Shown: positions 11,694 through 11,840 of the stretch, piece after piece
Layout of the letters: each line of letters begins with the position of its first letter
How positions within the stretch are numbered: the first letter of the stretch is position 1
IMG/VR virus record: IMGVR_UViG_3300042339_000035
Span: 1 to 29,858 of that record
Length of the DNA: 29,858 nucleotides
Strand: one strand, 5' to 3'
Source of the DNA: a virus
Translations under genes and position numbers: made by a program
Notes under the pieces: model-generated
Databases searched by the model: none
The model's input: the letters and a program-made list of their open reading frames with translations, nothing else
Told to the model about the DNA's origin: nothing

Positions 11694-11840
11694 ATGGACG
11701 ATTATCAAAATTACAAAAGATTTACATCTAAATGCAAATGCGGATGTCCTGCACACTGTGATCATAGTTGTACTGAGTGCGAATACTGTCCGGACTGCGA
11801 ATGCCCTGAATGCAAAGAGCTTGACAAATCTAGAGGATAA
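11694..11840 (+). CDS. 48-residue cysteine-rich probable metal-binding mini-protein
   Basis: A short protein of 48 residues with ten Cys (14, 16, 18, 22, 26, 29, 32, 35, 37, 40) and two His (21, 24), arranged CxCxCx3C...CxxCxxCxxCxCxxC. The density and spacing recall metallothioneins or small zinc clusters; no named family is recognised. ATG 11694 is preceded by AGAGG at 5-nt spacing. An in-frame ATG at 11679 overlaps the gp14-like stop codon as ATGA and would add five residues. The stop is 5 nt before the gp15 start, and its last codons carry the AGAGGA that serves gp15. Being between two neck-protein genes in one late transcript suggests that it is a virion or assembly factor, or binds metal late in infection; this is inference. 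Confidence 0.75.
   Translation: MDDYQNYKRFTSKCKCGCPAHCDHSCTECEYCPDCECPECKELDKSRG

Follow-up and report, generated by a model that had tools for sequence, protein, structure and literature searches.

The window analysed here is a fragment, 29,858 bases long, from the record of an uncultured virus; it carries T4-like tail sheath, tube and neck genes, and holds between two neck genes a cysteine-rich mini-gene that is protein-coding and under purifying selection. Its product belongs to a previously unlabelled, virus-only family of proteins of about 50 residues, found only in viral contigs. Our preferred reading, which we offer tentatively, is that the mini-protein could act as a thiol-rich metallochaperone or buffer (metallothionein-like, for Fe or Fe-S) serving phage-encoded Fe-S cluster assembly. 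The features around the mini-gene are the following:

10462-11682, plus strand: upstream gene, virion structural protein, labelled gp14-like here (phrog_11591, E 1e-76)
11679-11840, plus strand: cysteine-rich mini-gene, probable full extent, 53 aa, beginning MIEVYMDDYQ (MExYMDD kept in relatives)
11694-11840, plus strand: mini-gene frame from the second ATG, 48 aa by translation (10 Cys and H21 invariant in 34 relatives)
11690-11849, plus strand: 160-bp block common to the window and the erpA-located copy L018 (84%, blastn)
11841-11849, plus strand: AATTAATGG junction, ancestral stop/start overlap with gp15
11846-13276, plus strand: downstream gene, gp15 tail sheath stabiliser (PF16724, E 5e-25; phrog_11196)

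Translation of 11694-11840 (MDDYQNYKRFTSKCKCGCPAHCDHSCTECEYCPDCECPECKELDKSRG) gives 48 aa with 10 Cys and 2 His in the pattern CxCxCx2HCxHxCx2Cx2Cx2CxCx2C, flanked by the phrog_11591 gene and gp15, which confirms the cysteine-rich frame between neck genes that an earlier note on this DNA had described. Translation probably begins at the upstream ATG at 11679 rather than at ATG 11694, because MExYMDD recurs in nearly all relatives across contexts; that this stretch is coding is indicated by its Tyr codon, which alternates between TAT (14 distinct sequences) and TAC (11). In addition, copies located beside erpA have a good Shine-Dalgarno sequence (AGGAGAAAAAC) ahead of the ATG equivalent to 11679. 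In the window, ATG 11679 overlaps the stop of the upstream gene (as ATGA), and the internal ATG 11694, the less probable start, does have GAGGT four bases upstream, in keeping with the ribosome-binding site that the earlier note had described. The AGAGGA ahead of gp15 does overlap the end of the mini-gene, as the earlier note had indicated.

At approximately 31-33% identity, the cultured relatives of gp15 come from large T4-like phages whose hosts include Sinorhizobium, Agrobacterium and Pseudomonas. The T4-type late promoter motif TATAAATA showed no enrichment within the window. Elsewhere in the window we observed a 2OG-Fe(II) oxygenase gene a few genes past gp15 (14040-14603, minus strand; PF13640, E 3e-13), a stretch with three DUF7936 (PF25590) paralogues (13708-14067, 14600-14983 and 15255-15653, minus strand), and two adjoining tail-tube-like genes (2885-4501 and 4559-5197, both minus strand; phrog_13438/phrog_4542), the longer of which has an Ala/Gly-rich, acidic extension of about 300 residues. 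A tail-fibre-like ORF of 2336 aa (16035-23045, minus strand) contains long collagen-like GATGATG repeats and has a C-terminus that looks peptidase-like by eye.

Close relatives of the mini-gene were present on 28 viral contigs; the aligned searches gave 66 and 68 loci. An alignment of 34 rows, which represent 33 distinct sequences, showed no change at any of the 10 Cys or at His21, down to 42% identity, and almost none at His24, Tyr7, Lys8 and Arg9. Pairwise dN/dS was approximately 0.01-0.2 for those pairs where it was computable, the changes among relatives were mostly synonymous, and each invariant Cys was encoded by both TGC and TGT. It is the combination of invariant cysteines, low dN/dS and varying Cys codons that identifies purifying selection on this gene. 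The earlier view that the frame did not arise by chance is borne out by the retention of every Cys amid mainly synonymous change, and the homologue search recovered the metal-ligand pattern in relatives, with the same position among those found; neither unconserved cysteines nor a disrupted frame, either of which had been named as grounds for doubt, occurred in close relatives. The nearest match of the window protein, at 98%, is a neck copy from its own clade, with erpA-located copies next at 90%, and a 151 kb record (G001) is the window's 100%-identical relative.

By genomic home, 14 of the 34 rows lay at the neck junction, 10 were divergent from erpA, 6 were associated with iscU, and the remaining 4 lay elsewhere with no Fe-S gene within reach (iscU, iscA and erpA were assigned on the basis of Pfam NifU_N and Fe-S_biosyn). 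The mini-gene stood directly upstream of iscU in L121, L129, L130, L166 and L167 and one gene upstream in L133, and was divergent beside erpA in L014-L022, L026, L105-L112 and L128. In L167 the order was iscA (4649-4972), mini-gene (to 5138), iscU and erpA, with stops and starts overlapping or touching; in L166 it was mini-gene, iscU, iscA, erpA. Most non-neck copies were encoded with iscU, iscA or erpA, and the neck location itself was not. Genes for iron enzymes adjoined the mini-gene twice, a fatty acid desaturase in L127 and a PhyH oxygenase in L128, the latter also by erpA. In the nine records analysed, a share of 0.015-0.08 of the sequence lay 1 kb or less from Fe-S assembly genes, and 5 of 7 lineage representatives of the mini-gene fell within that distance (P of about 5e-6; P = 0.001-0.01 under harder pooling of lineages). 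When phage IscU rather than the mini-gene served as the seed of a scan, a diverged mini-gene between erpA and iscU (L216) was still recovered, and the other 79 of the 80 phage IscU loci examined were without one. The linkage is asymmetric: with one in 80 phage IscU loci carrying a copy, phage Fe-S assembly does not require the mini-gene, which accompanies it as an option and is not a core component.

G001 has an A-type Fe-S carrier gene approximately 71 kb from the mini-gene, together with four radical-SAM genes; some neck-type records with the mini-gene showed no Fe-S assembly gene, all of them being fragments. In G005 (208 kb) the mini-gene lies beside erpA, and a separate cluster reads nrdA-nrdB-iscU-iscA-glutaredoxin (L173, 4336-8735), a run that looks operon-like; iscU and iscA were named by Pfam, and the nrd and glutaredoxin genes are what we take them to be by eye from their sequences. 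In L129, a QueC gene (PF06508; 5529-6083) follows right behind the mini-gene and iscU, hinting at a deazaguanine modification with an Fe-S client. The record of L121 (G023) holds ten radical-SAM genes in 33.6 kb along with the mini-gene, iscU and two A-type carriers.

These neighbours (NifU_N, Fe-S_biosyn) are of the same kind as the IscU and A-type carrier genes that, with many radical-SAM genes, are described from marine T4-like phage genomes, and the portions of those descriptions covered here mention no cysteine-rich mini-protein (PMC5332604, PMC9038755). Most of the phage iscU loci that we examined were without the mini-gene. Among cellular factors, IscX, Fdx and CyaY are small proteins that work with IscU and are encoded beside iscU or needed by IscU; neither IscX nor CyaY, both of them acidic, is Cys-rich, and ferredoxin is a folded domain with four cluster cysteines. 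The mini-protein resembles them in size and in its proximity to iscU, with no homology to them in Pfam or PDB searches, and family searches likewise gave no homology to HscB or any other known ISC factor.

The family also stands apart from known sequences more broadly. Searches with the 34 members gave no Pfam, PHROG, NCBIfam or PDB match above chance, and no metallothionein profile or structure among Pfam, NCBIfam and PDB; we regarded the PDB sequence matches to PHD/RING and L31 proteins, with E near 1, as chance. No relative came out of two scans of 84,980 prokaryote genomes, both limited to conserved peptide patterns; tblastn in cultured phages had no match up to E=10 (a search of little weight, since the low-complexity filter may mask the mini-protein), and the Cys pattern was absent from five cultured gp15 relatives (L142-L146). 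AlphaFold, given the 34 sequences, produced a model with pLDDT 56 and pTM 0.27, and Foldseek returned no match to it; this outcome would be expected if the chain folds only around metal, but equally of any poor model, and the uninformative model was set aside. In the literature covered, which excludes subscription papers and preprints, we found no viral metallothioneins, and published phage ones may exist elsewhere.

The neck position in the window looks incidental when the loci are compared. Relatives of gp15 at 74-78% identity were without the mini-gene and had a clean TAATG junction, and the mini-gene was missing from 33 of 51 distinct gp15 loci. Its presence changed at least 4 times on the gp15 tree, over well supported branches, and the neck label changed at least 3 times on the mini-protein tree, which has few columns and weak resolution. 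The head-tail connector setting that had puzzled the earlier note is thus not intrinsic to the gene, and a connector role is not needed as an explanation, since close gp15 relatives do without it and homologues of up to 90% identity adjoin Fe-S genes. The junction itself tolerates extra genes, for Phosso (L142, 5537-5986) and Atu_ph07 (L143, 5546-5995) hold an endolysin gene there.

The borders of the mini-gene point to how it may have moved. Outside 11690-11849, blastn detected no DNA similarity between the window and L018, whereas similarity runs for kilobases when the window is compared with the neck relatives L023, L113 and L123. The 3' border is mostly a TAATGG stop/start overlap (AATTAATGG at gp15), and in several copies TAATGG marks the 5' border as well. 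In L117, AATTAATGGA flanks the mini-gene on both sides, and at the empty sites L043, L045 and L050 AATTAATGGA occurs once, where gp15 starts. Similarity confined to the gene between locations, together with the flanking TAATGG repeats, suggests that the mini-gene is a mobile, translationally coupled cassette whose extent would be the 160-bp block. The simplest reading is that insertion and loss proceed via short TAATGG-type repeats with translational coupling kept. Morons are accessory genes inserted between phage structural genes, and the mini-gene is moron-like in that some phages carry it between conserved structural genes and others do not; unlike morons, it appears to be inserted into a stop/start overlap and translationally coupled.

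How such a protein might serve Fe-S assembly can be outlined in a few steps. The 12 conserved ligands (10 Cys and 2 His) very likely bind metal or a cluster. Zinc would fit these ligands as well as iron would; the neighbouring genes (iscU, iscA, erpA, the fatty acid desaturase of L127 and the PhyH gene of L128) favour iron or an Fe-S cluster, with some uncertainty. The mini-protein would then carry Fe(II), a nascent Fe-S cluster or sulfide-reactive thiols, either passing them on to the IscU scaffold and the IscA/ErpA carriers or keeping them protected for these proteins; a physical partnership with IscU/IscA is something we infer. IscU and IscA/ErpA so supplied may allow the maturation of phage radical-SAM and other iron enzymes. 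In the window phage, a short coupled cassette would have moved into the stop/start overlap ahead of gp15, so that the structural operon would express the mini-gene.

The main rival in our analysis is zinc buffering, because SmtA can hold four zinc ions (Zn4Cys9His2) although it is a mere 56 aa with 9 Cys and 2 His (PMC10119931). Here the mini-protein would be a metallothionein-like Zn/Cu/Cd buffer with 3-4 Zn(II) in a Cys/His cluster, protecting the infected cell or supplying late zinc, and the Fe-S gene neighbourhood would reflect a shared stress module or convenience. As a small protein with Cys/His in CxC/CxxC clusters, it agrees with the definition of bacterial metallothioneins, and with 10 Cys and 2 His among its roughly 50 residues it comes near SmtA's composition (PMC10119931). 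Its likeness extends to SmtA/BmtA of Synechococcus generally (approximately 50-56 aa, 9-10 Cys plus 2 His, CxC/CxxC clusters; PMC10119931, PMC10612145), with which it probably shares the lack of a fold in the absence of metal, no confident fold being predicted without it; in addition, its twelve ligands suit three or four tetrahedral sites. The mini-protein nevertheless has no sequence-family match and a different Cys order, zero matches were obtained to metallothionein models or structures, and SmtA is cellular and contains a zinc finger, whereas the mini-protein family occurs only in viral contigs and often adjoins Fe-S assembly genes. Zinc buffering also leaves the repeated iscU/iscA/erpA placement unexplained, and we consider it unlikely. 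The description of the protein as metallothionein-like, made in the earlier note, holds up as a reasonable account of a possible mode of action, but not as membership of any known metallothionein family.

A zinc-knuckle adaptor, in which a rigid zinc module presents an N-terminus (MxxYMDDxxxYKRFT) that binds a host or phage protein and may redirect transcription, protein turnover or a defence system, would account for N-terminal residues (Y7, K8, R9, MDD) conserved almost like the cysteines, and small mobile phage accessory genes are often host-takeover factors. We nevertheless judge it improbable, given a ligand density above that of usual zinc knuckles, a similarity to known fingers not above chance and a linkage to Fe-S genes that it does not predict. 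That the protein is a neck/tail structural or assembly component needing a metal-stabilised mini-domain is less probable again: in the window its gene stands with the gp14-like gene and gp15 and is probably translated along with them, and 14 of 34 aligned relatives have it at the same junction, but it is absent from those gp15 relatives with 74-78% identity and a clean junction, homologues of 85-90% identity occur far from structural neck genes, and with at least 4 presence changes on the gp15 tree it is not conserved at this place. A neck-specific function was rejected as the main reading owing to the other locations of the mini-gene. A chance open frame has its short length in its favour and, against it, a dN/dS far under 1, synonymous variation at invariant Cys codons and conservation across 33 distinct sequences, which already refute it; we give it virtually no weight.

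Returning to the metallochaperone or buffer for phage Fe-S assembly, its fullest form is a bolder and doubtful proposal: that an Fe-S assembly factor without any equivalent in cells arose in phages themselves, in the form of a 10-Cys mini-protein storing or delivering iron, cluster or persulfide to phage IscU/IscA, which spread among large T4-like phages as a 160-bp cassette slotting into stop/start overlaps of unrelated operons. What makes the mini-gene notable is a virus-only family with repeated placement in Fe-S assembly operons and a cassette-like spread, as a unit scarcely longer than its coding sequence and bordered by translational stop/start overlaps. Spread of this kind would explain tiny accessory genes inside structural operons, and it cautions against reading function from such a neighbourhood. 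If the proposal is true, phages with Fe-S assembly genes would bring their own iron- or cluster-moving factor, beyond copies of host scaffolds, and the mini-protein would open a way to study how infecting viruses keep iron enzymes supplied.
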